A DNA stretch of 64,000 nucleotides from Escallonia rubra (taxonomy: Eukaryota; Streptophyta; Magnoliopsida; Escalloniales; Escalloniaceae). The first letter of the stretch is position 1, and each line of letters opens with the position of its first letter. The position numbers and the translations under genes were made by a program. The notes under the pieces are model-generated. The model had not been told where the DNA came from and made no database searches. It worked only from the letters and a program-made list of their open reading frames with translations. This document shows positions 18,496-64,000 of the stretch, piece after piece. The DNA lies in assembly GCA_033065855.1 (NCBI GenBank), contig JAVXUO010002627.1, positions 243,501 through 307,500 on the forward strand, given 5' to 3'.

Positions 18496-20173
18496 TTAAG
18501 AACCCATGTTTCTGTACATATATTCACACCCACAATCACCTAGCAGTCTCCCTTTCTTACTCACTACACACATATGCACAAAGACAAACACACAAACTTA
18601 ATTCACCAGCCATGCCCACTGCCTCACGGCAGTGGGTCTCCTTCTTCCTCCTTCTCTTTTCATAAACTTACCCACATATATGTAAACACATATATTCACA
18701 CACATACACATGAAACACCCAAACCCACTTTACCTCTCACATAAAATCTTCCACGCCGCCTCTCCCTTTCTTCTTACACTCTCATAACACACTACACTAC
18801 ACTACACATATATATACACATTAAGACACACCATTTCATACACTGTACACACTACTTCTATCATCTTCCCTATATCCTTTGTCTAAACCCACCATCTACT
18901 GTCATGCTTCATATATATATTTTTTCTGGTGGGATGCATTACCATAATGACCAAGTATATATTACTTGTCTTCCGAAATTAGTGTATGCCATTACTTACT
19001 AGTTTGAAATTCTCATGCATGATTTTTCTGTCAAAAATAGCTCTCTCTCTCTCTTTCTATCCAAACCCATAACTTCTCACTACTTCACAACACAACATAC
19101 TCACACACACAACACACGTACAGTACCCATTTCACCCACTTCTTGTTCAGTCCCTTTACTTCTCTTCTCTTTTCTTTAAACCCACTCTCACATCACTTAA
19201 GCACACCCTCATATACACACAAAACACACATGCACCCATGAAACACTCACTGAACCTGTGACTTCTCTTTTGCCATCATCGCCCCTCATACTCACACAAA
19301 CACTCCTCACACTTGCACACAGTTATTTTCACGGCTGTACAACAGCCCAAATACGCACATATCATGAGTTTGCAGCTTCTTTTCATACACAACGCTAGCT
19401 CTCCCGTACCCCCTAAACAAAATTCTCAGCCCCTATACAGATAAAAGATTAAACACATTCAATGGAAAAATGGTAGAATGTTTACCGAAAAATTGCACTT
19501 CGCCGGATCAGAAACGTTGCCGGAAGAAGTCGCGCTTTGATATATCGCCAGACCATTGCCGATTTCAGCCTCTCTCTCTCTCTCTTTTTCCCGTTCTTCT
19601 TCTCTCTATGACCGAAATAGCAAGTCTGCTCTCTTATTTGGTAACCGAAAATGGAATATTAATTCCCTCCTTCTGTGACTTTCTATAACCGAAAAACCAA
19701 CATCCCAAAATTTTCTCCCTCTATTCATCCTTGGTTCCCTCTTTTTCCAATTATATAGTTGACTTTATTTTTTTTAAATAAATAGGATTTCGATTTTATG
19801 TATTTATTTATTTACTAACCCACTTCAATAATTGTTGCTAAAAATTTCCGAAAATCTTTCTCACGTTTAATCATACTAAAGGCTTCAATTAATATCACTT
19901 ATAACAGCTATCATTAAATTTCAACTTATGGTTCATAAAATTTGTCCTAAAGATTGTCGATAAAAATTCAGTTACGCTAATCGTCTCTAAACACTTCATT
20001 ATCTCTTATAACTGTTAGCGTTAGATTATAATTTATGGTTTCTAAAGTTGACAGAAATATTGCTCACCAATTTGTCGCTAGAGTTCCAAACAAAAATATA
20101 TCGATGCTGACAAAAATTTGTCGCTAAAAAAAAAATTCGCCACTAAAATTTCTAATTAGATCCGAAAAATATC

Positions 20174-26639: not shown

Positions 26640-27490
26640 CACGCAGGCACCCTGACGGAGATAGTGTCCCGGAGGAGTCGCCTATTCCGCAGGCCGAGGT
26701 AGCATCCCGGAGGAGCCGTCTACCTGGCAGAAGGGGCGTCTTCGTGCCGGAGCACTTAGAGCTCCCTGGCAAAGATAGTGTCCCGGAGGAGTCGCCTATC
26801 CCTGCGGGTGAGTCCTTATGCCGGAGCACTTGGAGCGAGTCAAGGTAGCATCCCGGAGGAGCCGTCTACCCGACTGGCCGAGGTAGCATCCCGGAGGAGC
26901 CGTCTACCTGGCGGAAGGGGAGTTGAAGAGCTCCCTGGCAGAGATAGTGTCCCGGAGGAGTCGCCTATCCCCGCGGGTGAGTCCTTATGCCAGAGCACTC
27001 GGAGCATGTCAAGGTAGCATCCCGGAGGAGCCGTCTACCCGACTGGCCGAGGTAGCATCCCGGAGGAGCCGTCTACCTGGCGGAAGGGGAGTTGAAGAGC
27101 TCCCTGGCAGAGATAGTGTCCCGGAGGAGTCGCCTATCCCCGCGGGTGAGTCCTTATGCCGGAGCACTCGGAGCATGTCAAGGTAGCCTCCCGGAGGAGC
27201 CGTCTACCCGACTGGCCGAGGTAGCATCCCGGAGGAGCCGTCTACCTGGTGGAAGGGGAGTTGAAGAGCTTCCTGGCAGAGATAGTGTCCCGGAGGAGTC
27301 GCCTATCCCCGCGGGTGAGTCCTTATGCCGAAGCACTCGGAGCATGTCAAGATAGCATCCCGAAGGAGCCGTCTACTCGACTGGCCGAGGTAGCATCCCG
27401 GAGGAACCGTCTACCTGGCGGAAGGGGAGTTGAAGAGCTCCCTGGCAGAGATAGTGTCCCGGAGGAGTCGCCTATCCCTGCGGGTGATGT
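26640..27490. repeat. 169-bp tandem repeat array in the 5' LTR
   Basis: About five units contain GGTAGCATCCCGGAGGAGCC and GATAGTGTCCCGGAGGAGTC in alternation. Matching points recur at 26923, 27092 and about 27261. Most units are nearly identical, and the first two are more diverged. Two to three units of the same array occur in the 3' LTR (20204 and 20373 are 169 bp apart). The copy-number difference between the LTRs shows expansion or contraction after insertion. Confidence 0.88.
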
Positions 27491-27879
27491 ACACTCCAGA
27501 GAGTGGGTTGAAGCATGTTCCATGACCAAGGCAAGGTGCGCATGGTGTGATGAATGAGTGTGGTGCCCGGGGGCATGATGACATGATTGTGGCGCATGGG
27601 CGCGATGAAGTGAGTAAGGTGCCGGGAGCACGTCTATGTTAGTAGCGCGGCGCATGGGCGCCACGGAGTGCGTAAGGTGCCGGGGGCATGTTTGTGTCAA
27701 TGGTGGCGCATGGGCGCGACATAGTGCGTATAGTGCCGGGGGCACGGTAGTATGACAGAGAGCCTGGGGGCACGGCTGTATCAGCGGCGCGGCGCACGGG
27801 CGCGGCGAAGTGTTGGAGTGTGACGCCCGAACGTCGGTGACGGGGGTCACGGAGACGACGTCCGGGTGACGGACGATGA

Positions 27880-28270
27880 GCGTCGTGGAGTTGTGTCTGG
27901 GCGACGGGGTCGCGGAGTTGTGTCCGGGCGACGGGGGTCGCGGAGTTGTGTCCGGGCGACGGGGTCGCGGAGTTGTGTCCGGGCGACCGGGGTCGCGGAG
28001 TTGTGTCCGGGCGACCGGGGTCGCGGAGTTGTGTCCGGGCGACGGGGTCGCGGAGTTGTGTCCGGGCGACGGGGTCGCGGAGTTGTGTCCGGGCGACCGG
28101 GGTCGCGGAGTTGTGTCGGGGCGACGGGGTTCGCGGAGTTGTGTCCGGGCGACGGGGGTCGCGGAGTTGTGTCCGGGCGACGGGGGTCGCGGAGTTGACG
28201 TCCGGACGACGGGCGACGGGCGTCGCGGAGTTGACGTCCGGACGACGGGCGACGGGCGTCGCGGAGGATG
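27880..28270. repeat. Short G-rich tandem array in the 5' LTR
   Basis: Units of about 25-27 bp (GTCGCGGAGTTGTGTCCGGGC with GACGGG or GACCGG) are repeated some 13 times. The equivalent array at 20995-21330 in the 3' LTR has fewer units. Both strands stay open in several frames, a composition effect. Confidence 0.88.
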
Positions 28271-28349
28271 CAAGGCCTCTTGAAGAGAAGTGAAAATATT
28301 AAGTATGGAGACCAAAGGCCAACCCTTTGGGGAAGGCCAAGGCCAACCT

Positions 28350-28485
28350 CAAGGGGAGGCCGAGGCCGACCCCCATGGGGAGGCCGAGGCCGACCCCAAT
28401 AAGGAGGCCGAGGCCGAGGCCGACCCCAAGGGGAAGGCCAAGGCCGAGGCCGACCCCAAGGGGGAGGCCAAGGCCAACTTCCTTG
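28350..28485. repeat. GGCCGAGGCCGACCCC tandem array in the 5' LTR
   Basis: Imperfect units of about 27-33 bp contain GAGGCCGAGGCCGACCCCAA. The counterpart is at 21400-21535 in the 3' LTR. Similar GGCCGAGGCCGAG blocks recur in the internal G-rich region (22480-22900), suggesting that the internal tract grew from the same motif. Confidence 0.8.
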
Positions 28486-28680
28486 GGCAAGTGTCATGGC
28501 GCGTCGATGGGCGACGGGCGAAGTGCGACGATCAAAGCGTCATGAGGCTTGGTCACGTTCCTTGAGCGTGCATGTTTTGACCGGTTGTGAGCGTTGAAAA
28601 TGTTTGTTGCTTGTGCGGACGTGTCATGCAAAATGGGACCGTAGTGGGCCTTTGGGTACGACCAGAATAGGTTGGGAACA

Positions 28681-35500: not shown

Positions 35501-38500
35501 TGATTAACTCAAGGACGTGATCTCATGCATCAAGCCAAAGGCATATAGTTGAGTCAGTGATTTAGCTGAATACAACTTTTGGAGTGAAATTCCCAGAAGG
35601 CATTTGTGAAATGATCACATAGATCCAGAAGAAGGTTACTTCAGTCGAACAACATGAAAGATGTTTAGAAATACTTGCGATAGAGCTATCAGAAGATGAT
35701 TGGGGAACTCCGGCATTTCCTGAAGAATCCAAGCATCAAGATAGACCGAAAGACCAAATGCTGGGTTTTGACCTATACTACTAGATTAAGTTCTTTTCAA
35801 GCTCAAATGCTGGGTTTTGACCTGTACTACTAGATTAAGTTCTTTTCAAGCTAAGTGTAACGGGAGTAAAGGAGAATCCATGCTTGTCATGGCAGAAGCA
35901 CATGGGGTCTTTGTGTGGGCCATCAAGCTGGAGAGAGTGCATTGGCTAATAAGAAGTACCCTTATTATTGGTCAAGCATGTATTCAGATTGTGTAAGGTA
36001 TACAAAAGGGTGCCAAGCATGTTCTTAAAAGATCATAAAGATCCATAAGAAGGTACATCCTTCAGTCGGAGAACATGAAAGAAGTATATAAATGCTTGGG
36101 ATAGAGCAATCAGACGGTGATTGCGAACTCCAAACTCCAATTTTCAATTTCTTGAAGAACCCAAGCATCAAGATAGGCAGGAAGATCAAAATGATTGGTT
36201 TTGACCCATATTTCTGGATTAAGTTCTGTGTAGGAAAGTGTAAGGAGGGTATGCTTGTCGTGGCAGAAGCACATGGGGGCATCTGTGTGGGCCACTAAGT
36301 TGGAGAAAAATTGCATTGGTTAATAAGAAGATACACTAATTAGTAGCTAAGCATGGTATGCAAAAGGGTACCAAGCAACTCAGAAGTTTGAATTTGTTCA
36401 ACATGTTCCCGCAATTGTAACACAACCTATCATAAACCAATGGTTATTTAGAGGTTGTGCGATGGACATGATAGGGAAGATCTATCCATCTTTGTAGAAA
36501 CATCACCATACATACCTCTTGGTCGCCACATATTACTTCACCAAGTGGTTGGAGGTAATTCTGGTGAAGTCAACCTACAGGCTGGACAACGCTTCCATTA
36601 CCAACAGAAATAGATAGGGAGATATGGAATCACCCTGTTTCAACCCCCTGTGATTAGTAAAGAATCCCTCCATAGCACCATTCAAACTGATAGAAAATTT
36701 GGTAGTTGTCACACAGTGCATGATCCAGTTAATATACTGATTCGCAACTTTAACAACTTCCATGACGCATCTGAGAAAAATCCTACTCCACGTATCATTA
36801 GCTTTTTGTATGTCGATTATCATAACATTGGGGTCCTCCTTCTCTGTGGTAATTCCTTACAAGCTCTTGCATGAGGAGAATATTACACCAATATGTCTTC
36901 CTTCACAATATCTGCTTGCCTGTTACGTATGAGATGAGCTAGCACCCTTTGCATCCTTTACACGGCAAACAGCATTTTTGTGATGCACTTATAGACCACA
37001 TTGCAACATGCAATTGGTTTTTCTAATCACAGGGGCTTGAGATAGGGTGATTCCATATCTCCCTATCTTTTCTGTTGGTAATGGAAGCCTTGTCGAGCCT
37101 GTTGGATGACTATACTCGTACACCTGGATTTGTTTCATTCCCAAATGTTAGGATCATAGAACCAGTCATGTATGTTTTTCAGATGAGCTCTGCATTCTTG
37201 CTGGTGCCAACTTTTCATCCATCTCTATCATTAAAGATGCTATTCAAGGTTGTGGTCTCATGTCTGCGCTCACTCTAATCTCCAAAAAGGGCTTACTTTT
37301 TATAGCAGGTCTAGCTAGAACAGACGTGGAAGCTCTGGTACAAGTAATGGGGTTTCCCTTAGGAACCTTTCCTGTTACCTATTTAGGGGTACTGTTGATT
37401 AGTACTAAGCTGAAAATTGCAGATTGCCAAGTCCTAATTGACAGACTCATGAATTGAATCACTAGTTGGATTTCTAAACATCTATACTATGCTGGCAGGC
37501 TCCACTTAGCTCTCTCAGTGCTGTTCAGTATGCAAGTCTACTGGTGCTCCGTCTTCATTTTGCCTAAGAGGTGATCTGACAGATTGAGCTAAAGTTAGGA
37601 GGAAAGATACCAAATGTACTGGTGCAAAAGTAGCATGGTCTGATGTGTGTTTGCTAAAATAGGAAGGGGAAAAGGCACCACGATTGGAATAAGACTGCAA
37701 ATGCGTAAATATATTTGGGATCTTACTCAGAGAAAGGATACTCTATGGATTAAATAGAATTACACTTATCTAGAATTAACATAGAGGGGCGCAATCTTTG
37801 GTCTTTTAAGTCACCAGTTGACCTATCTTGGACATAATGTAAGATTGTGAAACTTCGGAGCAATATGCAGCAATTGAATCAGTATAAGATTGGTAATGGA
37901 AAAGATACTTGGTTTTGGATTGATAACTGGCTGCCAAATTGGTCAATTGCAACTTGGGCATCATATATGATGCAGCTAGCTCAGTGGATCTCAAAGTGCA
38001 TGATGTCCTGCTCCATGGAGTTTCTAATATACCTCTAAGATCACTGACTCTGAGGGAGTTGCATTCACAACTTAATGCTATCCCCTGCTATGCTATTAAC
38101 CAAGATGATCAAATCAAATGGTCCTTTAACCCCAAAGGCAATTTTAACTCTCAATCTGCTTCGAATGTTATCCGCTTACATCAACCTTTGGTCCTTTCGT
38201 GGAAATTAGTTTGTTTCCCTGGACATCTTCCTAAATGCTCTCTCATCCTTTGGCTGCACTTTACAAAGAAAATGAGATCTAAGGACAGGTTAAAAATGTG
38301 GAATGTGGTGACTGAGGATAGCTGTATTCTATGCTGTCACTTACAGGAAACTTTGGATCATCTGTTCATGGCCTGCTCTTTCACTCAAGTTCTGTTGACA
38401 AAGATATTCAATAGGCTGCAGATTAGTCATTGCTTTGATGACTGGCCTCATTTGCTTCATTGTGCTATGCTTAAATACCGAGGCTAGAGCTTTCGAGCAG

Positions 38501-42492: not shown

Positions 42493-43478
42493 AGTGGCCC
42501 TGAAGTTGGGCGCCAGATCTGGTTTTCACAGATTGAGATTGCTGTCGCGTGTTTTGGCCATGATGGCTTTTGCCTATGTAGTTATAAATCTATTCCAATG
42601 TACGCACATCTATCATGAAGTTATTGCCCTTGATCATGTGGCTTCAGTTTAGTGGAGTTGAAGGCAGAACAGAAAGGCTAACAGTCGCTTTTATTGCAAA
42701 ACCTGGGCTGTTTACATCCGTTCTGTAGAACTTTTTATTGGCTGAATGCCGTCAAATCCATAAGAAAAAGGGTCATGCTACAGTGCGTTCCAAGTGGTTT
42801 GGAAATTTGTTTCCTTTAATCATTCGATCGTAGCCCTCGTGGAGGGCAAGGCGTAAAAAAATATTGTTACCTTCTGTTGCAAAGCCTGGGCAATTTATAA
42901 TCCTTATAGTTTTGTGAAACTAGGTCGCCAGAATGCCTGCAAATTCACAAGAAAGGGTTAGTTTATGGTGCACTGTCACTGATTTCCAATGCGTCGTGAG
43001 TTCCTAGCAACAATTTTTGCCAAATGCTGCTATCAAATAAACCCGAAAAACTTTCAAATGATCAAATGTAGTATAAGTTTTTGCAAATTCATGAGTGGTC
43101 TTATTTCTTCCATATCTGACATGTACTTGGTCATGTCAGATACTACGGCCGTGTGATATTGCTTCGTATTAGGACCCAGTAATCCCTTTCACCCATCACT
43201 GTAGGCAACTCCTTTGTGGGATTCACTTGCCCCTCTTTATTTGATGGTGTTATATAATAGGCCTGTCTGTAACTATTGGTGAACCGGGGGGGATTAAACC
43301 TGTTGCAAGGAGAACAGAGCGCGACTCATGGCAAGCCTAAAAATATTTTTGAAGTACAATACGTGCAAATAATGACTCGTCAAATTTGAGTCTGGTAGAA
43401 GATATCTGATGCTTAAGATAATGTTTGTACGAGGAGAACAACTAGTAAGCGAGAGCAAACGATGTAAGAGTAAAATTT
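42493..43478 (+). other. MIC10 3' UTR and downstream DNA
   Basis: No coding frame. Two diverged copies of a GCAAA(A)CCTGGG...TTTATTG / GCAAAGCCTGGGCAATTTAT phrase (about 42695 and 42879) suggest an old internal duplication. A clear AATAAA is not seen close to the stop, so the polyadenylation site is unassigned. Confidence 0.4.
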
Positions 43479-45567
43479 GGGACTTGCGTTCGCAGATGAC
43501 GCTATGTTATTTTCAAAATTCACTCTTACCTCCTGTCAGCATCTCCATTTCATCCTTCAGCGATATTGTCAAGAATCTGGGCAGCAAATCAACCTTAATA
43601 AATCCTCGCTTACTCTTAGCGCTAATGCCTCAAGTGAGGAGGCGTCTTTATTCGCTCAGATTTTGGGACTACCAACGTCCAATTCCTTTGGAAAATACCT
43701 TGGAAACACTTTAGACATTGTCAGCAATCAGAAAATGTTCTTTAAAGAGCTCATCGGGAAGCTACAAAGCCGCTGTGCAGGCTGGAAAGGCTGTTTACTT
43801 AACAAAGCAGGCCGAGCTACCCTCATTAACTCTGTTTTGTCTTCACTTCTCATATATCACATGCAGGTATCTCTCTTCCCTAAATATGTTTGTACAGCAA
43901 TTGATGCAATCTTGGGCAGATTTTGGTGGTCGGGAGATGAAAATAAGAAAGGAATTCATTGGCTTAATTGGCACACAGTGTGTGCACCTAAGACTCAAGG
44001 GGGTCTTGATTTTAAGGACACCCATCTTTTTAACTTAGCTCTCCTAGCCAAAACTGGCTGGAGAATTTGGACGGACTCTGATAGTCTCCTTGCTCGAGTC
44101 ATGCTAGGAAAGTACTGTACTAGAACTAATTTCCTCTCCAGCCCTAACAAAGGTAATTTCACGTGGGGATGGCGTGGCATTATAGCTGGTCGAAAAGTCC
44201 TACAAAGTGGTTTACGATGGCAAGTAGGTACAGGTTCACAAATATCTATTTGGCAGGACGATTGGATTCCCAATTGTGACATCCGACCTACTTACCTAAG
44301 TTCTGAATATCCTCTTTCTTCGGGCACTGTCAGCAACCTCATAAAAAATGGTGAATGGGATGGAAACCTCCTCGCTCGATTGTTCCACCCCGAACTGGTA
44401 CACAAAATCTCTGCCATACATATCTCTCCGCACCCTATTGAAGATCAGCAGCTATGGAATCACACATCTTCGGGATCTTACTCTGTCAAATCAGCATATT
44501 CTCTGATCTTTAGGCAAAAAACCAATCGCTTACGCAGTATGGGCCAACTAACCACACTCCCTTCTCCAGAAACAAAATTTTGGAAGGCTGTCTGGTCTCT
44601 CCCAGTACCTCACAAAATGAAGTTTCTCGTTTGGCAAATCTTATGGGATCGGCTACCTCTTCAGTCATCTCTCCATCGCTTTAATATTACCTCGACAAAT
44701 TCATGCCCCATATGCCTTAATGAGCCAGAAACACTCGATCATCTATTCTTATCATGCCCAAAGATTCGTCCTATTTGGTTTGGCGGCCCTGCAGGTATCA
44801 GATCTGATTCAGTCTGGACCCCTTTTCGGGAGTGGCTCATAGCATGGCTTGAACGCACTTTCCATAAAAGCTCATATATGAATATCACTCAATCTATCAT
44901 TACAACCCTCTGGGGTATCTGGACGCATCGTAATCATCTTGTTTTCCGTCAAACTGAGTTCAAACCTTCTGTGATTACTCGAAGCATTCACGATCTTTAT
45001 CAAACAATCACTACAGCCTACAAAAAAATCACTGCCTTCAAAGCAGCAACGGCTCAGCCTATCTTTCCGAAGCTTCCTGTTCCCTTTGCTTTACACAGCA
45101 GTGACTTGTCTTGCACTTGCCAACAAAAAACTCCTATCCTACTGTACATGGCTATCTGCTTTGATAAAAAACTCTTGAAAGCAGGGATTGGAATTTCGTG
45201 TCTCACTCATCTTCATAAACGGTGTGGATCTGCTGCAATCTCCACTCCAGCTTCTGATCATACAGCTGCACTAGCTCGGGGGATTCTAACTGTGGTAAAA
45301 TGGGCGAAGCACCGGAATTTATTGCATATTAAAATTCTTACTAAATCCAAGCTTCTCTTATCTCAGATGACGGACATTGAAGATATCTCAACCCAAGTGG
45401 CACCAGTTCTATATGACACCTGTTATATTATTGCTGATCTTCACTACTGCAGCATGGACAGGACTACAGATTTGCATTTAAAAGAGGCCAGATCTTTAGC
45501 AGCTTTTGCGTGTCATGCCCGTATCCCCGTATTTCAAGACTGGGTACATGAGACAATGCTGCAATGA
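43479..45567 (+). pseudogene. LINE ORF2 C-terminal part (696 codons open, 5'-truncated)
   Basis: The frame is uninterrupted from the truncation point to TGA at 45567 but lacks its own start; the first codons are TTG GGA CTT and the first ATG lies within the motif. It opens with LAFADDAMLF, the catalytic Asp-Asp box. It continues through the connection region (GKYLGNTLD, GRFWWSGDENKKGIHWLNW) and a zf-RVT domain whose CPICLNEPETLDHLFLSCP starts near residue 410. The last 150 residues sit where RNase H should be, but the usual Asp/Glu/Asp residues are not evident (ICFDKKLLKAGIGI; DHTAALARG). Endonuclease and most of RT are missing, so it cannot transpose on its own. Confidence 0.85.
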
Positions 45568-46449: not shown

Positions 46450-47557
46450 GGGTGAATTAGACTCGATATTCCCGAACTTATGTCTTAATACTCTCGTTAT
46501 CCCTTCCTTTCGGGAAACTACACTAACACCCCTCACTGTTAGATTTTAGTGAATGATGTCAAACTTTTGGTAAAATGATTTAGGGTCAAATACACGTAGG
46601 TACCCTGAAACTACCACAAAGTCTCAATTGAGGGTCCCAAAGTTTAATTTTTACACATAAGGGTCTGTAACTCCATATTTGGTATGAGTGAAACAATGCC
46701 AATTTTAGGGTTCCAAATATTAATAGATTCGGGTTCTAAAAATCAAGGGATTTGACAATAAAAAATTAAATATGAGTTCCCAAAAATGCTCCTGATGGAA
46801 AGGGCTGAACCGTTAGGAATTTAGACGGATGCCCTTACATGTTGCAAATTTGGAGTTACAGGCCCTTATGTGTAAAAATTAAACTTTGGGACCCTCAATT
46901 GAGACTTTGTGGTAGTTTCAGGGTACCTACGTGTATTTGACCCAATGATTTAATTGCCCTTACATTTGTAACCAATTTCCAAGCATGTTAAACACTTTTG
47001 TTAGAAACCAATTCCAACTCTTATCCCATAAACCACAAACATCACCACCACCACCAAAATGATCATCTTATATTTTGTTATTTAAAGTATTTTTGAAGTG
47101 TTAATAGTCAAAATTAAGTCTTAATATGTTGATACATTGGTTAGGTAGAGTTTTAAAATGTGCAGAATTTATCTTTTACTCTTATAAGGTCAACTAAATC
47201 TGTAAACCCACCCTCACAGGTGAACCACATACTACCAAACTTACCACCACACATCCGCCGCCACCAACTGATCCGTGGGCATATAAAATGGGCTAGTGTT
47301 AGCGTTGGTGGTGATTAGTAGTGGATCATGGAAGCCTTGGTGGTGAAAGGCGGGTGGTATTGACTTTAGGGCTTGATTGAATTGTATAGTTTTGGGTTTC
47401 CAAAAGATTTTATTGCCAAAATGGATGGAAACATAATGGAAGGGGGTATATACTATGCAGAACAAAAATGTGAAGGGGTGTCAGTGTAATTTCCCAAAAC
47501 AGAAGGGCAACGAGTGTTTAAAGCATAAACTCAAGGGTATCGATTATAATTTATCTC
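46450..47557. mobile_element. Mutator-like element with a nested MITE
   Basis: The left end GGGTGAATTAGACTCGATA matches the reverse complement of the right end (GAGATAAATTATAATCGATA). Inverted similarity goes on for about 90 bp (GTTATCCC/GTTGCCC, GGGAAACTACACTAACACCCC/GGGAAATTACACTGACACCCC). Flanks GATGTACAG and CATGTACTG fit a worn 9-bp duplication. The core beyond the nested MITE is AT-rich and noncoding. Confidence 0.65.
46583..46943. mobile_element. 361-bp Mutator-type MITE with long near-perfect inverted repeats
   Basis: Each arm is about 93 bp, starting GGGTCAAATACACGTAGGTA, and the arms differ by a single visible base. The exact 9-bp duplication AATGATTTA flanks it (46574-46582 and 46944-46952). 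The sharp duplication and arm identity mark a recent insertion. RNA across it would fold into a long hairpin. Confidence 0.93.
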
Positions 47558-52292: not shown

Positions 52293-53990
52293 TCAGTTGT
52301 TTACAAGCAAGCCACTGTACAGCCAATTTCTCATGACCTCGAAAGCCTGCTCAGCATCCCCATCTTCTTCTGGAGATGCAGGCCGGTGAGCAAACCCATG
52401 ACCTCTTCCCTTATAAATCACCACCCTTGATCCCGCACCAGTACTCTCCCCAATATTACGCAAGGCATTGACTGGGCAAAGTGGGTCATTCTCGCCTGCA
52501 ATGAATAAAACGGGTACCTTTACTTTAGCTGCAACAGATGGGTCAATTCTTGTGCCATAGAATGAGATTCCAATGCCAAAATAGCCATTCAGGTCTTCAG
52601 CTAGGACTTCTACTACTCGACCACCTCCGAAACAAAAACCAATGATACCAAGCTTCTTCGAAACTCCTGCAGCTACAAATTCATCTTCCATCCATTTCAC
52701 TGCTGTAGCAATGTCTTTCGCAACCCTTTCAGATTTTTGGCTAGCGATCCATTGTTCAAATAACGCCGTAGGCCTCTCCTTTTCCCATGAATCTCCACGG
52801 AACAAGTCGGGCACCAAAACGCTGTAGTATGGTTTTAATAGCAAACCAGAAAAATTGTGTTAGCAGTAGAGGGAAAAGGAGGGAAGAAGAGGGAGTTTTC
52901 TGTGTTTGTGTGCGCGCATGCGTGTCCAATTTTGACAACGGATAATGCCTGGAAGCGCTAACAGTTAATAGTAAGCATAGGGCTATCAATCAAATGGGCG
53001 TCAGGTATCTGTGTTCCAGTCAAACAATGTTGAATGTATAATAGTGTCTTCGTACTTTTTGTTTGGTAGAGCGTATAACAACAAAGACGTCAAACTAAGA
53101 TCAGGCAACATACTTGTAGCCATTGCAGGCAACACGATAGGCAAAGTCTCTAGTGGAAGTATCTTCAAACCCAAAGATATCAGACAAAAGCAATATGCCC
53201 GTTCCATTGTTGTTCTTCACCGCCGTAAAAAAATAGGCATTGATGCTATCAACTCCCTCCCCTATGGAGAGCTCCGCACCATTGACTAGCTCGCAGGCCT
53301 CATCTTCTATGCTATCTTCGACTTTCACATGGCTACAAGCAACTCTCGAAGTCCTACCTTCTATCACCGACAGTAAGGGTCTCCGAGGATTTAGATTGCA
53401 GATATTCTGAACAATAACTGAAGATTTGAAGTCAAAAAGTTGTAGATTTCTTTTTAAGTTAAAACGTGGGAATACTAGACAAGACAAATGATACAAATGC
53501 GTCAAAGAATAAGAAGCAATGGCAAAGCACTTGGAATGTAACAGCAACACTTGGGGCCAGATTACACATGCTTGGTGAACCATTAATGGCAGGACATAAG
53601 GGGGCTGTTTAGTTGTCCCTCTAATTTTATCTTATTTCAACTTTCAATCAGCTATTTCAATAGAGCCACTTGACAAAATACAATCATAATAAGAATAAGC
53701 TTCCACTCAAGGAATGTATGAGCCAATTCAATTGCGAGAAAAAACCAACTAGCCGGAGTTGAACGTGGATTATGTATATATGGAACTCAAGTTTGCAAAA
53801 TGATTAATTTCCTCAATCCCACAATTATGATGAGAAAAGAATGAGGAAAAGAGTGGAAAGTACATACAGAAAAGGGAAGCTGAAAAGCAGAAGAAGGTGA
53901 GGGGAGCTTCCCCGTGATGAACAAGCTGCTGCTGTTACTCAAACTTGTTGAAGCCCAAACCAAGGGGGCTGCGCATACTGACAACGCCAT
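52293..53990 (-). CDS. Dienelactone hydrolase family protein, probably plastid-targeted
   Basis: This alpha/beta hydrolase is related to bacterial carboxymethylenebutenolidase; the plant substrate is uncertain. Exons are complement 53868-53990, 53114-53406 and 52293-52821 (945 nt, 314 residues). Introns start GTATGT and end in TATTGTTCAG and ACTACAG. The exon 2/3 join creates GYNVLVPDLFRGD, a signature of the family. The catalytic triad is visible: Cys202 in GFCFGGG, Asp251 in AGENDPLCP, His280 in GRGHGFAHR. Exon 1 (MALSVCAAPLVWASTSLSNS) is Ser/Ala-rich with few acidic residues, like a chloroplast transit peptide; the hydrolase domain begins near residue 75. All sites are intact, so the gene looks functional. 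Introns of 461 and 292 bp are transposon-free, unlike MIC10. Confidence 0.9.
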
Positions 53991-55134: not shown

Positions 55135-56340
55135 GTGGAAAAAAGGGGAGCACCACCACACAAATATAATATCAAATCCAATGCCACAAGCAAAACTCAA
55201 CCTACATCGAAGCTTGATGCCTAACACCACCTTACATTATCACATCACCCAAAACATGGGACCTTCTTTCGGTAAGTTACAAACTATACTCACGCGCCAG
55301 AGAATTAAAAGGTGAAAGACACCTCGTCGAGTATTAGAAGGGACTGGCGTCACTAGAAAATAGTCGTCACCAAAAAACGGCCGAAATCCGACGAATTAAC
55401 CGACAATTCATTTTCAACACAAGATTATAGATCAAAAATAAGAAGATGACGATAGTGAAATTTCAAGTGCAAAGGCAGTCGTCGGGAAAAGGTTGGAATC
55501 CGATGACAGAATGGCAATACATTATGATCAGATCTAAAAATATAAACAGCAATCAAAGAAATGAAGTGGAAAGGCCGTCACCGAAAAAAGGCCGGAATCC
55601 GACGCTGGAAATGAAGACTCGACGAGAACTCCGGACCCTAGATCTACTCAAATAAATGACGATCATAAAATTTGAGCGAAAAGGCCGTCACTGGCAAAAT
55701 GCTAGAATTTAACGACCAAATTGACATTGGAATCGATGACTTCAAGAAAGTAGATCGATGACTAGTAGGTTAGCATGTGGCCAAATGTTGAATATCTGGC
55801 AAGAACTGAAATTCTGGCCAAAACCTTAAAATCCAACCATGGTTGAAAATCCAGACGAAAAATCTTTTGCAGTTCTAATTCACGCGTAGATCAAACATGG
55901 TTGAGGAGAGGCATTAGAGGAAGCTTATTAGGTGAGGAAGGGAGAAAAAAAATAAAGCAAGAGAGAAATAAGGGAGATAGAGATTTAGAGAATTGGTCCC
56001 ACCCCTCTCCCCCTCTTTCATAGCACTGTGGCGGTGGTTTATATAGAGAGAAGGTATAGGAATTTGGTGTAGAAAAAAGAGAAAGGGTGAAATGGCTCAT
56101 TTACACTTCTTACACACTGAAATGGCTTACCAAGTTTTCTTTCCCGTGATGACCTTCTCAACATTAAGGCTGCGTTTGGCGACAAGGACAAGGATAAGGA
56201 CAGGATAAGGCCGGACAAGCTATACCGTCGGATAAGATCGGATAAGCAAGAAATCTTATCCAGCGTTTGGACCAAGTCCGGATTATAAGTCAGATATGCA
56301 ATTTACAAAGTAATATATATATATATATATATATATATAT
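53991..56340. other. Intergenic, no gene recognised
   Basis: This includes the likely promoter of the dienelactone hydrolase gene (53991 to about 54250), a long poly-G run (about 55109-55131), CGTCACCG(A)AAAAGGCC repeats at 55340-55700 and, at 56165-56290, a GGCTGCGTTTGG...CAGCGTTTGGAC stretch resembling a MITE end. A (TA)n run covers about 56312-56340. No reliable coding frame is seen on either strand. Confidence 0.45.
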
Positions 56341-57060
56341 GGGGGCCGATCCCCATTGACCGGTGGGAAAATAACAATTTTCCCACCGAACCGCAGGTAA
56401 GAGCAGCGGTTGGCCACGTGGACGGAAAAGAAGGCGAAAAAGGACGAAAAAGGCCCAAATGGCACGAGAAATTCACCAAAATATCACGAGAAAATCAAAA
56501 TATCGCGAGAAAATGGGCATTAATGCCCAACCGTAACTAGTACATGCGGTTGGCATTAATTCCCAACCGCAACTAATACATGCGGTTGGCTGCCTTCCGT
56601 GACCCCCACCCCCCTTGCCCCCCACCCCGTGGCCCCCACTTTCCTTTTTCTTTCTCTCCTCTTTCCCTTTTTTTTTCTTTCTTTCTTCTTTCCCTTTTTT
56701 TTTTCTTTCTTTCTTCTTTCCATTTTTCTTTATTGTCTTTACACTCCGGGCCCCACCCTCCCCAAACCGCAACAAGAAGTTGCGGTTCACCCTTTTTTCA
56801 ATTGCAATTTTTCTTTCTTTCTTCTTTCCTTTTTTTTTCTTTCCTTTTTCTTTCTTTCTTCTTTCCTTTCTTTTTCTTGCAACTAAGAGTTGCGGTTGGC
56901 AATGAGTGTGTCCTTCCCCCCACCCCCCCACCCCCTCCCCCCGTGGCCCCCACCCCTTGCAAAAATTAAGCCCAACCACAACTCTTTGTTGCGGTTGGCA
57001 TATCTTGGCATTTCCCCACCCGTGGCCCCCACCCCCTTCCACAATAATAATTTTTTAGGG
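56341..57060. repeat. Cluster of CAACCGCAAC/GTTGCGGTTGG hairpins in a pyrimidine-rich tract
   Basis: The word CAACCGCAAC, or its reverse complement, recurs as close inverted pairs (about 56525-56590, 56765-56785, 56878-56900, 56970-57000). They are separated by CTTTCTTTC and CCCCACCCC tracts. Each pair could form an 8-11-bp stem. The long minus-strand frame over it (Lys/Arg/Glu repeats) is a composition effect. Its role is unknown; it lies directly outside the left arm of the large inverted-repeat element. Confidence 0.6.
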
Positions 57061-57070
57061 CGTTAAAATG

Positions 57071-58350
57071 ACAGTTTTTTCACGAATTTATAAAAAATAG
57101 CTAGAGCATGATTTTGCCAAAGTGCAAAAAAGAGACCCTAGGTATTTTCAAAAGATCTGTATCAGGTAAAAATTTCAGATTTTTTCAAAAACTGTTAAGG
57201 GCTAACTGATACGGGGAACCTTGTAACTTCGCAGTCTAATTTAAAATACCAAGCTAGCGCGATTTCGCGCGAAACTTTTATGAGAACCCTAGGATGTTGG
57301 GAAGTTTCATTCCCCAGGAATTCGCGCCATTCCGAAGCTGTTAACTATTTTTTTGGCCGAACGGCCTTTTAAGCGCTCAATCCGGACACCGATTTGTGAT
57401 TTTTGCGTGAAAGATCCGTAAAATACTTTTTAGATCAACGATGAACTCAGGAAGCGTAAAATAGCATTTTGAGGCACTTTTGAGATTTTTCCTGATGCCA
57501 GGGGCATTTTGGTAATTTGCCACCCCGCGAGGGGTGTTTTGGTAATTTTCCCACGCCAAGTTTTTCCAACGACTTTTTAGTCCAGAAATGTAAGTAAACC
57601 ACCTGAAATGTTGTTTTGAAGCTGGTTCGGGGGCGTAATTGTCGCTAGGGGTGAAAACTTAATTAGACAGTTTTTTCACGAATTTATAAAAATAGCTAGA
57701 GCGTGATTTTGCCAAAGTGCAAAACAGAGACCCTAGGTATTTTCAAAAGATCTGTATCAGGTAAAAATTTCAGATTTTTCCAAAGACTGTTAAGGGGCTA
57801 ACTGATACGGGGAACCTTGTACCTTCGCAATCTAATTTAAAATACCAAGCTAGCGCGATTTCGCGCGAAACTTTTATGAGAACCCTAGGATGTTGGGAAG
57901 TTCCATTCCCCAGGAATTCGCGCCATTCCGAAGCCGTTAGCTATTTTTTTGGCCGAACGGCCTTTTAAGCGTTCGATCCGGACACCGGTTCGCGATTTTT
58001 GTGCGAAAGATCCGTAAAATACTTTTTAGATCAAGGATGAACTCAGGAAGCGTAAAATAGCATTTTGAGGCACTTTTTAGATTTTTCCTGCTTAAAATCC
58101 CGTTTCAAAGCACTTTTCAGATTTTACGACGCTAGGGGCATTTTGGTAATTCGCAGCCCCGAGGGGGGTATTTTCGTAATTTTGCAGCGTTAAAATTTTC
58201 AAAGGACTTCTTAGTCCAGAAATGTAAGCAAAGCACCTGAAAGGTTGTTTTCAAGCTGATTTGGGACGTTAGGGTGAATGAACCCCCGGGGGCATTTCGG
58301 TAATTTACCGCTCGTCGGGGGCTATTTTGATAATTTTACCTGCCTACAAA
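57071..58350. repeat. Left inverted-repeat arm, two tandem subunits
   Basis: The first subunit starts at 57071 and the second at about 57666, a period near 595 bp, with the same order of landmarks: TTCACGAATTTATAAA, GATCTGTATCAGG, GCGCGATTTCGCGCGAAAC, CCTAGGATGTTGGGAAG, GGCCGAACGGCC. The second is followed by GGCATTTTGGTAATT-type repeats to about 58350. GGGGCATTTTGGTAATTT recurs several times. Short open frames here are chance. Confidence 0.85.
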
Positions 58351-58454
58351 TTTTTCCAGCAATTAACTTTTAGATAATTTTTATTCTTCTTTTATTTAAT
58401 TCTATGACTTGTTGAGAATGATATAATTTTTATGTTTTAGATTTCAGTATAAAT

Positions 58455-58835
58455 ATGGATACAACTAGAGGAAATAATTTTTGTGAAAGTTCTGATCCAC
58501 CCTACTTGGGTCAAGTTTTTCAAACACTGGACGAAGTTGAAGCATACTATAAAGCATATTAAAAAACGATAGGTTTCGGTATTAGAACTAAGACGACTAG
58601 AAAACGGGCGAATACAGATCAAATTTGTGGAAGACTATTTGAGTGTCATAGAGGAGCACCGCATGTACCCCCGGTCGTTCGGATCAATGACGAAGGGACA
58701 ACAAGACAAAGAAAACGGGACACATTTTCGGGTACCGGCTGCAAAGCCCATGTGTATGCAGTACACCGGAAAAATGAAACCATTGGTTTGTTTAAATGTT
58801 TCAGTTGTATAACGAATAACTTTTATAATGTTTAA
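58455..58835 (+). pseudogene. FAR1-type DNA-binding domain fragment with a stop
   Basis: FAR1 domains are WRKY-GCM1-type zinc-binding DNA-binding modules of MULE transposases and of the FHY3/FAR1 factors derived from them. From ATG at 58455 the frame gives MDTTRGNNFC, then GQVFQTLDEVEAYYKAY. TAA follows at 58560-58562 (codon 36). Then come KTIGFGIRTKTTRKRANT, LFECHRGAPHV and FSGTGCKAHVYAV, with Cys and His in the usual FAR1 places, to TAA at 58833-58835. No DDE transposase core or SWIM finger follows. It is probably the left-over N terminus of the element's transposase. The TAA could lie in a spliced intron, but no good sites flank it. Confidence 0.7.
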
Positions 58836-58894
58836 ATTTGTGATTTGGTTTGTTGAATCTCTAATTTGTGATTTGGTTTGTGGATTATTGATAT

Positions 58895-59535
58895 TTTTTG
58901 AATGGCATATTCGCGCACACTTTAGCGCCCAATTCATAGCTTCCGAAAAATCTTGTAATTTGTTTTGTTCATTGCACTTTAGGCACGCTTTAGTGGCCAC
59001 TTCATAACTTTCGAAAAATCTTGTAATTTTTTTTGTCACTTTTTTTTCCGCTCATTGCACATGAGGCGCGCTAGTTAGCCCATTCTTATGTATTTCGGCA
59101 AAAAACGAGAAACGTTATTTTTTCGGTTTTCCTATGAAGGGCCTATTCGGGCACACTTTAGGAGCCAATTCATAACGTTCGAAAAATCTTGTAAATTTCT
59201 TTGTCACTTTTTTTTCGCTCATTGCACATGAGGCGCGCTAGTTAGCCCATTCTTATGTATTTCGGCGAAAAACGAGACACGTTATTTTTTGGGGGTTTCC
59301 TATGAAGGGCCTATTCGGGCACACTTTAGGGGCCAATTCATAACGTTCGAAAAATCTTGTAAATTTTTTTGTCACTTTTTTTTCGCTCATTGCACATGAG
59401 GCGCGCTAGTTAGCCCATTCTTATGTATTTCGGCGAAAAACGAGACACGTTATTTTTTCGAATGCGTCATATGAACTGTATATTCGCGCACATTTTAGCG
59501 CCAAATTCATAGCATGCGAAAAATTATGTACATTT
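58895..59535. repeat. 168-bp tandem repeat array
   Basis: About 3.7 units contain CACACTTTAG, CGAAAAATCTTGTAA, GCTCATTGCACATGAGGCGC, GCCCATTCTTATGTATTTCG and ACGTTATTTTTT in order. CCTATTCGG recurs at 59142 and 59310, giving the 168-bp period. The array fills the gap between the FAR1 fragment and the stop of the PMD-Ulp1 gene, and covers the latter's 3' UTR. Outer units are more diverged than inner ones. Confidence 0.85.
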
Positions 59536-59569
59536 CTTTTTGGTACAGTTTTTTGTAACATCACAGCAG

Positions 59570-62422
59570 CTAGCCACGCACGTCAGGATAATGATAATGA
59601 AGTCGTCTGGCTTCATTCTTTTTCAGCTCCCAGGCTATCCTATACCTAAACGTCAAGGCATCCTTCCTAGTCCACGAGGAGTGTTTGAGCACTTCTGAGC
59701 GAGCAATGTAGTCCATGTACTTGAGGACGTAAATCCCGCAATTGTTACCGTTATATTGCTTTGGTCGGTCCTTTATCATCACGACCGTCCAAGGCTCCCC
59801 CCGTGGCCGTCTGCACGCTAGCGAGAGGACAGTAGTCTGCATCCAACAATAAAATCGAGAATCAAGCCTATGAAACAACAACAATATACTATGAGCCAAG
59901 GTCAAAAAATAAAAACTAACCACTAAAGTGATGTAGTCGTTGTACATCTGTGCCAGCAGCTGTCCAGGCTCGTCCTCCCTTAGGCTATCGTATATGTGAA
60001 CCGTTCTGAACGCTGGATGGAGAACTAATAGGAACCAGTGGTACCCATGAAGACAAGGTATCATAATAAGGTTCGCATCAGCAGCGGGACATTGATACTC
60101 TGCGTTCATCATGCATAACACGTTTCGACCTGGTTTCCAATTACTCATGTTGCCCCCTTGCCTCCATTCATGGAATTCCCGGATCGCTAATTCCACAAAA
60201 TGAGTGGGATACATGTTAAGCTTACAATATTAAGAACGGTTAAAATGATGCTCTCTAATCCGGAGCAGATCTATGTAAGCGTTGATGACAAAATTTGAAA
60301 GATCTGTCTCCGGCGCCAACATTCTGATATCCGAATGACCTAGGAGTGTCCCAAGAGGGAAGTCTGTTGAATTGACAGGCTCATGCCCGAAGTAGTGCCG
60401 GTCGATCCAACCCATCTTCTCCGGCCTCAATGGCTTCGTCGCTTGTCCTTTGTTCGACCGGAAGCTTGGGCGCGAGGCATGGATTCCTACTTGGGGAACC
60501 TGACTCTGGCACTGAGAGTCGTATGCGTCAGGAGGAGGGCGACTATACGGCTCCCACACCTGACTCGAAGTTCCGTAGTCGTACGCGTCAGGAGGAGGGC
60601 GACTAGACGGCTCCCACACCTGACTCGAAGTTCGGTAGTCGTACGCGTCAGGAGGAGGGCGACTAGACGGCTCCCACACCTGACTCTGGGGCTGATAGTC
60701 GTAAGCGTCAGGAGGAGGGCGACTAGACGGCTCCCCTTGGTAACCCCGGTGCGCAAGACTAAAGTTTTGAACATTAGTCTTGTACCTCTCAATGGACCTC
60801 TTGATATTGTCAGGAGCCTGCGCGACAAACCAGTCAAACGACTCCAGCTGCTTGAACACGTCAGTGGCCTGGTCAACCTAAAAAACATGCATAGAAAATA
60901 TGGCTAATCATTTCATTTGATGGTCGATACGCGGGCACAAACAAATTATCAAACAACACTAGCATGACTTACAATGGCCAATGCCCAGAACTGGTCATAG
61001 ACCTCACGTGGCGCATACGATGTCTCCTTCACCTGGGAAGGGCGATTCACCCTCGTGCGCGTCACCCTGAGAAACCACTGTAAGTAGTCCTCAGTACTGA
61101 TGCCGTCGTGCTTCAGCGATACAAGGCTGTCATACGTTTCCTGCCAAGTATTCCATTGTTGCACCTCGTCACCCAACACAGTCAAGGCATTAGCCACCTC
61201 GAAGTTCGGCCCTCGACCACCCCTGTATGGCCGCATGTCTACAGCGGGTTTCGGAATCCCTTGTGGACAGCCAGCTTGCTTCATAGCTCGATCGGGCATC
61301 TGAAACTCACATTCTTCGAAGTGAATGAGCGGCACCCGAACCAAACCTGCAAGCACGTACGACACCGGAAGTTGCCAACACAACTCATCCAACAGATGCA
61401 TCACCTTGTCATATGGCTGCCACGTCACCTGGTATGCATCCAGCATCTCTAGTTCCCCCCGATAGAACTGTAGATGGTTGTGAGGGTCTACCCGTCTCCT
61501 CCTCCGGTTGGTCGGAGGCCCCCAGGCCCACACCCTAGGCCACGTCTCATCGGAATCTACCAACGGTTGTGGACGACCCGTGGGTAGCCTCTCGTAAGAC
61601 CAAACCTGTGAACGCAAACATTATATGGAATTAGTAATGAATCCCGAATATATTGACTAAGGATCCGGGTAAGAAAATAAATGCTCATACCTGTAATAGA
61701 GTCAGGCAGGCGGCAATGGACTTGGCACCGTTTCTCGTAGCCTTATGCAGTGCTCGATATAGGTGCGCAAGGACAGCTGAACCCCACGAATACGAGTATA
61801 CCTCGTCAAGATCCTCCAATAACACCATATACTTCGGATGCACCGTGTTTTTCGAATGCGTCGGAAGTAATATGGCTCCAATAATATACAGAAGGTATGC
61901 CCTCGTATACGTCACGAAATCATGACGAGTGTATTCATCCGGTAGCACGCCATACTGCTCTCTCAGCCATTTAAGCTTGACGCCGTTTGTTGTAAGAGCT
62001 GCCCTTGGAATTCCCGAAAAATAATGCCTAGCCATATTCGCTACGGATGCAGACGGCACGCTCAGAGTAACGGGTCTGCCGTGACATGGGATTCCAAGTA
62101 TATATCCGATGTCCTCTAACGTAACAGTCATTTCACCAAACCGGAAATGAAATGAGTTCGTCTCGCTCCTCCATCGTTCAACTAGAGCGGATATAAGGCA
62201 ATCGTCGTGTCGATACCATTTCCCGCAATCGGTGAACAGGCTTAAATTTTGACCGTGTATAAGGGCTTTTTGTTCCTCGTTTAGTACCCACTCTTCAATT
62301 CCTCTTGTGGTTTGAATTGTTTCCAAAACACCCCTATCGACACCGTCAAATACGTGCCTCGCGACGTGGTCATCGTCATCGTATAGGATTGATGTATCAT
62401 GAGGTCCGGGGTTGAAATCCAT
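59570..62422 (-). pseudogene. PMD-Ulp1 fusion gene (transposon cargo) with one in-frame stop
   Basis: Four exons: complement 61691-62422, 60973-61605, 59921-60877, 59570-59836. Introns of 84-95 bp have GT-AG ends (GTATGA..TTCACAG, GTAAGT..TTTTTAG, GTTAGT..GATGCAG). The frame stays in register for 863 codons. Residues 1 to about 450 are a plant mobile domain (signature ERWRSETNSFHFRFGEMTV at 82-100, then TLEDIGYILGIPCHGRPVTL). Residues of about 500-585 are a 20-residue repeat, WEPSSRPPPDAYDY-type. Residues 660-855 are a C48/Ulp1 protease with His735 (HGYHW), Asp752 (IYDSL), Gln801 and Cys807 (KQYNGNNCGIY). A TAA at 60230-60232 (codon 671) separates the halves. It acts presumably in the nucleus on SUMO-like conjugates; that role is inferred. 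Pseudogene, or a two-product gene. Confidence 0.85.
60500..60740 (-). repeat. Four in-frame 60-bp coding repeats
   Basis: The plus-strand period is exactly 60 bp (GCGTCAGGAGGAGGGCGACT recurs once per 60 bases). It encodes 20-residue units of the form WEPSSRPPPDAYDYxxxSQV on the minus strand. The units form a flexible Pro/Ser/Tyr-rich linker between the PMD and Ulp1 parts. Near-identity between units suggests recent expansion, and the 60-bp period keeps the frame. Confidence 0.92.
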
Positions 62423-62889
62423 ATCTCTAAGAACAAAATATAATCGTAAACCAACTTAGCGTCCATAATATTTACATTCCAAAACTACATTCCTGGATCT
62501 TTAACCTAGCTTACCACCACATTAGCAATAGTCATTATTTCAATGTATTAAAACAAATCCTCACTTTCCACCACTCCGAACGCTTAATTACGCTAGTTCT
62601 CATTGAATTTAGCGCCAACGTGGTTATATAGCAATATACCCCCCGATGGCCCCTACACCCCCAAGACCTGAAAACCGCTTTAAAGTCAAGTTTTTAAATG
62701 TATTACGTCAATTATATACCAAATATATCAGGAAAAATTTTAAAGGGGGAAAGTTACCAAAACACCCGCTACTTATGCAAAATACCCCCTGGCAGTCATC
62801 GCCGGTGCGTCACAAGTTCCTGAATTCACCCGGAACAATAAAAGTTTTCGGGTGTCTGACACCCTTTGCTGAACTAAAAGTTATTTTAA
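62423..62889 (-). promoter_or_regulatory. Upstream region of the PMD-Ulp1 gene
   Basis: AT-rich for the first 220 bp, without an upstream ATG-led frame that would compete, then grading into CCCC(C)-rich arm-type sequence (GGCCCCTACACCCCC). Presumed promoter; no certain TATA box. The plus-strand frame at 62646-63056 is arm sequence, not a gene. Confidence 0.4.
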
Positions 62890-63874
62890 GGTATGGCCCT
62901 TTAAGCTGGATCCTTCCTAGCAAAATAGCCCCCGATGAGCGGCAAATTACCGAAATGCCCCCGGGGGTTCACTATCACCCCAACGCCCCCGAACCAGCTT
63001 CAAAACAACATTTCAGGTTCTGTGATTACATTCCTGGACTAAAACTGTCTAATTAAAAACTTGGCGCGGGAAAATTACCGAAACACCCCTCGCGGGGTGG
63101 CAAATTACCAAAATGCCCCTGGCATCAGGAAAAATCTCAAATGTGCCTCGAAATGCTACTTTACGCTTCGTGAGTTCATCCTTGGCCTAAAAAGTACTTT
63201 ACGGATTTTTCGCGCAAAAATCGCGAACCGGTGTCCGGATCGAGCGCTGAAAGGGCCGTTTGGCCAAAAAAATAGCTAACGGCTCCGGAATGGCGCGAAA
63301 TCCTGGGGAATGGAACTTCCCAACATCCTAGGGTTCTTGTAAAAGTTTCGCGCGAAATCGCGCTAGCTTGATATTTTAAATTAGACTGCGAAGGTACACG
63401 GTTCCCCGTATCAGTTAGCCCCTTTACAGTCTTTGGAAAAATCTGAAATTTTTACCTGATACAGATCCTTTCAGAATAACTAGGGTCTCTGTTTTGTACT
63501 TTGGCCAAATCACTCTCTAGCTATTTTTTATAAATTCGTGAAAAAACTGTCTAATTAAAGGGCGAGCGCTGAAAGGGCCGTTCGACCAAAAAAAATAGCT
63601 AACGGCTCCGGAATGGCGCGAAATCCTGGGAATGGAACTTCCCAACATCCTAGGGTTATCGTAAAAGTTTCGCGCGAAATCGCGCTAGCTTGGTATTTTA
63701 AATTAGACTGCGAAGGTACACGGTTCCCCGTATCAGTTAGCCCCTTTACGGTCTTTGGAAAAATCTGAAATTTTTACCTGATACAGATCCTTTCAGAATA
63801 ACTAGGGTCTCTTTTTTGTACTTTGGCAAAATCTCGCTCTAGTTATTTTTTATAAATTCGTGAAAAACTGTCTA
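62890..63874. repeat. Right inverted-repeat arm, two tandem subunits
   Basis: This is the reverse complement of the left arm: GCCCCCGATGAGCGG and CGAAATGCCCCCGGGGG mirror 58280-58320, and TTCGCGCGAAATCGCGC at 63350 and 63670 mirrors 57260 and 57860. The first subunit ends at about 63555. The second (63562-63874) is shorter, lacking the portion upstream of GCGAGCGCTGAAAGGG, so the two arms are not built identically. Confidence 0.85.
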
Positions 63875-64000
63875 TAAATGTAATACGCTATTTTGAATCG
63901 CTATAAATGTAATACGCTAAATGTAATACGCTGATTTGTATAAACCTAACATTGAATTATAAGGAAATTCAAAATACTTACTTGTTGTGACTTGATGTAT
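63875..64000. other. Flank with short TATAAATGTAATACGCT repeats
   Basis: TAAATGTAATACGCT recurs three times between 63876 and 63932. No gene is seen, and the window ends here. Confidence 0.5.

Follow-up and report, generated by a model that had tools for sequence, protein, structure and literature searches.

Why would a plant transposon carry, beside its transposase, a gene in which a plant mobile domain (PMD) is joined to a C48/Ulp1 protease? The question is raised by a Mutator-like element (MULE) at the right end of a 64,000-nucleotide stretch of the Escallonia rubra genome, the whole of which is called the window here. PMD proteins silence transposons in Arabidopsis, PMDs also ride in transposons, and the function of the domain remains to be determined according to Ikeda et al. 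(PMC5418596). A first-pass annotation of the locus had suggested that the PMD-Ulp1 product could counter host repression of the element. Our analysis points the same way: the window probably holds a deletion-damaged copy of a two-gene MULE, whose PMD-Ulp1 protein would bind the DNA of its own element and counter host silencing in the manner of VANC21, a VANC anti-silencing protein of the VANDAL elements of Arabidopsis (PMC5735166, PMC10398659; PDB 9lnj).

The window copy is broken in both of its genes. The minus-strand, four-exon PMD-C48/Ulp1 frame that had been annotated was recovered with its exons, both domains and its catalytic residues, but it is not open. In profile scans that read stop codons as X, the PMD scored 233.4 bits against a cut-off of 34.9 (PF10536, E 5.6e-69) and the C48 domain, which lies behind the stop, 53.5 bits against 20.7 (PF02902, E 3.9e-14). 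The predicted exons are joined by phase-0 GT-AG introns, the last of which (87 nt, before exon 4) is in frame, stop-free and has a weak donor. The Ulp1 region aligns with SENP1/2 and holds the His/Asp/Gln/Cys tetrad, which is kept in 17 of 18 loci (L011 is without the Cys). The stop falls at codon 671, and it is absent from all 17 other fetched loci that cover the residue. An intron that would remove this TAA was considered and rejected, as inspection by eye showed no fitting GT-AG intron of usual size that would spare the start of the C48 domain, a part that is kept in a PMD-C48 protein of Apium (P0003). The window copy is thus predicted to make a PMD-plus-linker protein only. On the plus strand, the FAR1-type fragment was confirmed, though with an in-frame stop, and its proposed origin as a remnant of the element's own transposase is borne out by relatives in which the frame continues into MULE and SWIM domains. 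In four relatives (L010, L011, L012 and L018), about 1.96 kb separates the positions matching window 58791 and 58795, and by alignment the piece that is absent from the window is the transposase body. Open transposase frames with FAR1, MULE and SWIM domains are present in L012 and L018 (PF10551, E 5e-33), while the window copy retains the FAR1 start only. With a stop before the protease and no transposase body, its output is predicted to be no more than a PMD-plus-repeat fragment, and it would move only with the help of intact copies.

Related copies are numerous in the same genome (566 Mb, 3222 contigs), so that PMD-Ulp1 as an accident of the window copy can be rejected. A PF02902 profile search gave 284 matches, and stretches were fetched around the best of them, 11 and then 6 more. 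Seven of the first 11 are elements of the same kind as that in the window (L009-L013, L018, L019) and four are distant PMD-Ulp1 carriers (L014-L017); all six later stretches are of the same kind again. These related copies consist of a transposase and a convergent PMD-Ulp1 gene, both between long, tandem-built inverted repeats. The first-pass annotation had asked whether intact copies hold a FAR1-MULE-SWIM transposase beside PMD-Ulp1, and relatives do hold one; PMD-Ulp1 is also inside the mobile unit, between the arms in 9 of 9 two-armed loci (L009, L011, L013, L018, L019, L050, L051, L052, L055). The best 62 of 4397 transposase candidates were scored, at 95-100% identity, and 58 of the 62 are stop-free. 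For PMD exon 2 of the window, the best 150 of 2739 candidates lie at 87-100% identity, 133 of these 150 are stop-free by hand count, and four other loci score equal to the window's own. With PMD exon 2 of L018, the best 150 of 2727 were scored and 58, including that of L018 itself, share the top score; with the C48 part of L018 exon 3, 148 of the best 150 (of 2018) are stop-free. PMD exon 2 is convergent with 52 of the 62 scored transposases, the C48 exon is paired with 58, and by either exon 61 are paired, the single unpaired transposase being near a contig start; no PMD-Ulp1 exon in the other orientation was seen among the 62. The PMD pairing used 97 of the 150 scored L018 PMD exon 2 matches and the C48 pairing 58 matches on transposase contigs. 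Since only the best candidates were scored, these pairing and copy counts are lower bounds, which may also include haplotypes or duplicated sites. Two copies (C272 and C2268; L057/L012 and L058/L018) share their left flank up to the TA repeat, and this may reflect nesting of the site within another repeat, duplication of the segment or haplotypes. In 43 of the 58 paired copies, the open frame of the C48 exon is 341, 361, 381, 401 or 421 amino acids long, that is, the linker varies in steps of 20 residues. Damage is also seen: PMD-Ulp1 stops, the natural end near codon 859 aside, occur in L010, L011, L013, L054 and L014-L017, and parts of the gene are missing from L050 and L052. PMD-Ulp1 sequence is present with the transposase body absent in the window, L009, L050, L052 and L055, most of which are also damaged in PMD-Ulp1.

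What the gene might do is suggested by its first half. The predicted fold of the PMD N-half (exon 1) matches VANC21, and this was the only significant fold match. From this model and the profile searches, the N-half is predicted to be related to DUF1985, the domain of the VANC proteins, and to fold like VANC21. A DUF1985 search of the genome gave 16 loci over the cut-off, 6 of them beside listed PMD-Ulp1 exons. A PDB search with the PMD alignment returned three weak matches only (E 0.22 or more), which we take as chance, and an AlphaFold model of the Apium protein P0003 was discarded (pLDDT 43). In a fold search of viral models, A0A890CAY5 matched the PMD model (61691-62422) with a Foldseek E of 1.8e-5 but a template modelling score of 0.39. 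The VANC21 match and the kinship of PMD with DUF1985 strengthen the idea of anti-repression, while the function itself is a prediction. These two observations also speak against PMD-Ulp1 being a transposition helper, acting in cutting, integration or complex assembly, with a protease that processes the transposase or removes a modifier from it, a role that can be likened to that of mudrB of maize MuDR: the matching protein is an anti-silencing, DNA-binding one, and the related domain is that of VANC. The near-universal pairing with a transposase in the amplified subfamily would fit any obligatory partner, a helper included, and the copies that have PMD-Ulp1 without a transposase body fit a trans-acting factor of either sort and do not decide the matter. 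On balance, we regard a helper role as rather unlikely.

The four distant loci L014-L017 form, by sequence, a second PMD-Ulp1 MULE family, with transposase and PMD-Ulp1 convergent in 4 of 4. The PMDs of L014-L016 share 43-48% identity with the window-family PMDs and 72-79% with two Escallonia rubra proteins (77-79% with P0001). Between the genes, the window copy and 10 close relatives have arrays of about 167-168-nt units in 3.3-7.7 copies, and L019 has a partial array; all four distant loci instead have an array of 78-nt units at this place, and blastn at 1e-5 gave no match between these arrays and the window element. Selection was estimated as dN/dS (omega) by the Nei-Gojobori method with a custom script. 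For pairs with dS of at least 0.10, the medians were 0.48 for the PMD (42 pairs), 0.69 for C48 (51) and 0.49 for the transposase (30), where pairs are non-independent. In independent pairs, chosen by hand, the close family gave 0.47 for the PMD (p 1.6e-6), 0.69 for C48 (p 0.034) and 0.56 for the transposase (p 0.0014), and the distant family 0.54 (p 9e-4), 0.57 (p 5e-4) and 0.54 (p 2e-7), respectively. Stops in some of these loci are expected to raise omega. Neutral evolution of both domains in all copies, the outcome that would have refuted the first-pass interpretation, is not what the values show, the PMD being clearly and Ulp1 weakly constrained. A passive cargo, in which a host PMD gene and an Ulp1 fragment were transduplicated without any role for the element, would fit the broken window copy, the stops in several fetched relatives and the frequent capture of host genes by MULEs (PMC2528002). 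We find it quite improbable given an omega below 1 for the PMD in close and distant families, the stop-free state of most of the best-scored PMD and C48 exons, and the persistence of the layout in a family with only about 45% identity in the PMD.

The origin of the element PMDs also argues against passive cargo. In a tree of 23 PMDs, both element families, the Apium PMD-C48 protein P0003 and the two Escallonia proteins form a clade (100/99), and MAIN-LIKE and PP7-long proteins fall outside it. The tree omits the short P0014 and P0015 and is without PMD-A and PMD-B rows; P0003 and others sit on long branches and are therefore placed with little certainty. P0003 aligns end to end with PMD-Ulp1 at 29%, and a protein search with its C48 half found one further PMD-C48 protein, P0015; with the C48 half of the window copy, none of 801 candidates gave a match. 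Together with the Apium protein, the clade indicates that the fusion is not private to the Escallonia rubra genome, and it makes a recent capture of PMD-Ulp1 from MAIN/MAIL genes improbable; judged from the tree, there was probably none. The same tree bears on whether the PMD half could be a decoy of the host MAIN/MAIL1 pathway, competing for PP7L or for the DNA motif of that pathway, without VANC-like targeting of the element's own DNA. A PMD is present in MAIN and MAIL1, and both are silencing factors (PMC5418596; PMC7156037), but the element PMDs stand apart from the MAIN-LIKE rows and are nearer to DUF1985 than the other PMD proteins scanned, making a decoy very improbable.

We thus favor a VANC-type function. 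Motifs in non-coding stretches of VANDAL elements are bound by VANC proteins, and methylation is lost as a result. The proteins combine conserved DUF1985/DUF287 with variable regions that contain tandem peptides, and tandem repeats are the means by which their targets evolve (PMC5735166). The PMD half may recognize non-coding DNA of the element, with the array of about 168-nt units or the repeated arms as candidate sites, and the 20-residue peptide repeat could tune or space the DNA contact. The C48 protease would then take SUMO or another ubiquitin-like modifier off silencing proteins gathered at the element, so that its promoters may stay active. The modifier is not fixed as SUMO here because the proteases of the Ulp1-bearing VANC genes, called KIU (PMC13317346), are argued in a review to be unlikely to act on SUMO (PMC6117577). 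More tentatively, with somewhat less confidence than would make it our expectation, we propose that the PMD is a VANC-type, sequence-specific DNA-binding fold and that the MAIN/MAIL1 silencers and the VANC/KIU anti-silencers are two arms of one superfamily. PMD-Ulp1 would then direct a deconjugating protease to chromatin of the transposon that encodes it, in FAR1-type, long-tandem-TIR (terminal inverted repeat), TA-targeting MULEs outside VANDAL.

Several observations weigh against this interpretation. Window exon 1 scores 30.1 bits with DUF1985, below the cut-off of 35.1; the exon of the one over-cut-off locus that was fetched (C567, L059) reaches 34.7 bits when scanned alone, again below 35.1; and the PMD match of L060 is 28.0 bits, below the PMD cut-off of 34.9. 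Searches by phmmer with exon 1 and with L060, to an E limit of 10, returned no PDB chain, not even VANC21, so the evidence for the VANC link is the predicted fold and the Pfam profiles. The window scan, with the same E limit, did not show DUF287, the second VANC domain. Genic PMD proteins of host silencing share the domain, and hence the fold alone does not indicate anti-silencing. No 167-nt array was flagged in L012 and L018, which belong to the much amplified subfamily, and this weakens the array as a target. The constraint on C48 in the close family is weak, with most of the single pairs listed not significant. Finally, the TIRs of VANDAL elements are short or absent, and those of the PMD-Ulp1 element are long.

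The arms of the element were confirmed as long and inverted, with paired stretches of 403, 367 and 247 nt that are 91-93% identical, and they are tandem-built on both sides, with units of about 596 nt on the left and of 311-322 nt (322 nt on the right). For unit 2 of the left arm, 40 genome matches, the best of 3437 candidates, were scored at 96-100% identity, a number that includes the window's own and tandem units of a single element. The extent first assigned to the element, 57071 to 63874, did not hold. The similarity of relatives continues beyond both positions, and by this comparison the stretch is the inner part of the element only: the terminal repeat begins at 56341 with GGGGGCCGATCCCC, adjoining TA repeats, and the right side runs beyond 63874 to the last base, 64000, where an N run hides the right end. 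A 9-11 bp duplication was sought at 57071/63874 and rejected, as none was seen there and these positions are not true ends. In most family copies, the terminal repeat opens with a run of G and GATCC. Twenty-one of 23 recognized family ends abut a TA run, as in MuTAnT-like elements (17 by threshold and 4 by eye; exceptions, L019 at 198 and L044); the 23 include the window copy itself (as L020) and were left from 25 pattern hits after two in coding sequence of L014 and L015 were dropped. L055, with both ends read, is 5252 bp long and has the same outer sequence, TA on both sides and TIRs of 1240 bp at 96%, and these, like the window arms, are long as in MULEs. Any 8-11 bp target-site duplication is hidden because the ends lie in TA microsatellites and, in the window, because the right end is in the N gap. 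Immediately beside the end of the MULE copy in L050, TA repeats flank a small element with inverted ends (8080-8400).

Table 1. Features of the MULE copy and its surroundings in the window (positions from the first base of the window)
Feature	Position	Strand	Basis
TA microsatellite abutting the left terminus	56313..56340		AT x14
Left TIR, outer part: GGGGGCCGATCCCC start, hairpin motifs, pyrimidine-rich stretch	56341..57062	+	comparison with relatives
Left arm, tandem unit 1	57063..57658	+	repeat analysis
Left arm, tandem unit 2	57659..58335	+	repeat analysis; genome matches
FAR1 DNA-binding fragment, start of the transposase, with in-frame stop	58455..58832	+	PF03101, E 1.3e-7; relatives continue into MULE, SWIM
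Junction at which L010, L011, L012, L018 have about 1.96 kb of transposase body that the window copy lacks	58791..58795	+	alignment to relatives
Non-coding tandem array of about 168-nt units separating the convergent genes; candidate binding sites	58899..59541		repeat analysis
PMD-Ulp1 predicted exon 4: C48 Gln and Cys	59570..59836	-	frames, profile search, alignment
PMD-Ulp1 predicted exon 3: linker with tandem peptide, C48 His and Asp	59924..60877	-	profile searches, alignment
In-frame TAA (codon 671) upstream of the catalytic residues, private to the window copy among 18 loci	60230..60232	-	frames, relatives
Four tandem 60-nt units coding the 20-residue peptide repeat, between PMD and C48	60517..60756	-	repeat analysis
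PMD-Ulp1 predicted exon 2: PMD C-half	60973..61605	-	profile searches
PMD-Ulp1 predicted exon 1: PMD N-half, DUF1985-like, predicted VANC21-like fold	61691..62422	-	profile and fold searches
Right arm, inner unit	62918..63558	-	repeat analysis
Right arm, unit 2, shortened	63563..63874	-	repeat analysis
Outer right terminal region, start; conserved in L009, L019; N gap follows	63875..64000	-	comparison with relatives

Elsewhere in the window, an ordinary host gene lies about 3.5 kb to the left of the element, represented by a dienelactone hydrolase exon (52296-52859, minus strand; PF01738, E 4.5e-25). A smaller inverted-repeat element with tandem arm units is found at 10931-12241 (307-nt arms, 96% identical and separated by 690 nt; 171-nt units). 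An inverted repeat of 99 nt (98% identity, 163-nt spacer), resembling a miniature inverted-repeat transposable element, lies at 46583-46943. Direct copies at 20173-21746 and 26723-28680, about 6.9 kb apart, 85-98% identical and with 169-nt internal repeats, surround a Retrotrans_gag frame (24117-25304, E 1.1e-8) and are probably the two long terminal repeats of a retrotransposon. Remnants of the long interspersed nuclear element type, with zf-RVT and zinc knuckle, are at 13558-17266, 37927-38484 and 43474-45564. Rfam and tRNA scans of the window found nothing.

Parts of this arrangement have been described before. ULP-bearing Jittery-like and MuDR-like MULEs are known from melon and grapevine (PMC2528002; van Leeuwen 2007, cited therein). 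Jittery-like MULEs resemble the present element in having the ULP sequence downstream of the transposase (PMC2528002) and a FAR1 domain in the transposase (PMC9569675), but "mobile domain" is absent from the main text of the grapevine paper (PMC2528002). PMDs carried by MULEs, often antisense, have been reported (PMC5418596; table of PMC6446971, where we take "PMD", not spelled out in the available text, as plant mobile domain), and an anti-silencing role for such captured PMDs was already speculated on by Ikeda et al. (PMC5418596). The reported cases differ in having the PMD fused to the transposase (PMC5418596) or as an antisense PMD (table of PMC6446971, in which the FAR1/Jittery group is without PMD), and the available text of these two papers does not describe a PMD-Ulp1 fusion. 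Genic PMDs do include a PMD fused to a protease, as noted by Nicolau et al. (PMC7156037). Repeated TIR units on both sides are shared with tandem-TIR MULEs, in whose description "Ulp1" and "protease" are absent from the main text (PMC3310237), and insertion into TA microsatellites is shared with MuTAnT of Medicago, which has a mudrA-like transposase and whose abstract does not mention PMD-Ulp1 (PMC4486113). In the open-licence literature searched, we found no MULE whose second gene joins a PMD to Ulp1, and no link between the PMD and the VANC fold.

The closest likeness is to the VANC and KIU systems, with which PMD-Ulp1 shares the predicted VANC21 fold, a related domain, the protease, tandem peptides and arrays. 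Compared with VANC21, it has a full PMD in place of DUF1985 plus DUF287, and a fused C48 domain; compared with VANDAL elements, its element has a FAR1-type transposase and long tandem TIRs. Kaonashi (KI) MULEs likewise have Ulp1/C48 in a second gene, reverse to the transposase, and occur in many copies, but they are non-TIR MULEs of the VANDAL type, in contrast to the PMD, long TIRs and FAR1 transposase found here (PMC13317346, PMC6117577). Given what is shared, and the FAR1 transposase, long TIRs and lack of DUF287, PMD-Ulp1 likely works like VANC/KIU without being classed as VANC. If the PMD has the VANC fold, its role can be tested directly as sequence-specific DNA binding, and a common origin would follow for silencers and anti-silencers. 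With many near-identical two-gene copies in one genome as well as transposase-less ones, the family lends itself well to tests. It also suggests a possible use for the Ulp1 domains that are frequent in MULEs, in which a DNA-binding half would bring the catalytic one to its target, and this goes a step beyond the separate reports of Ulp1 in MULEs and of PMDs in MULEs.

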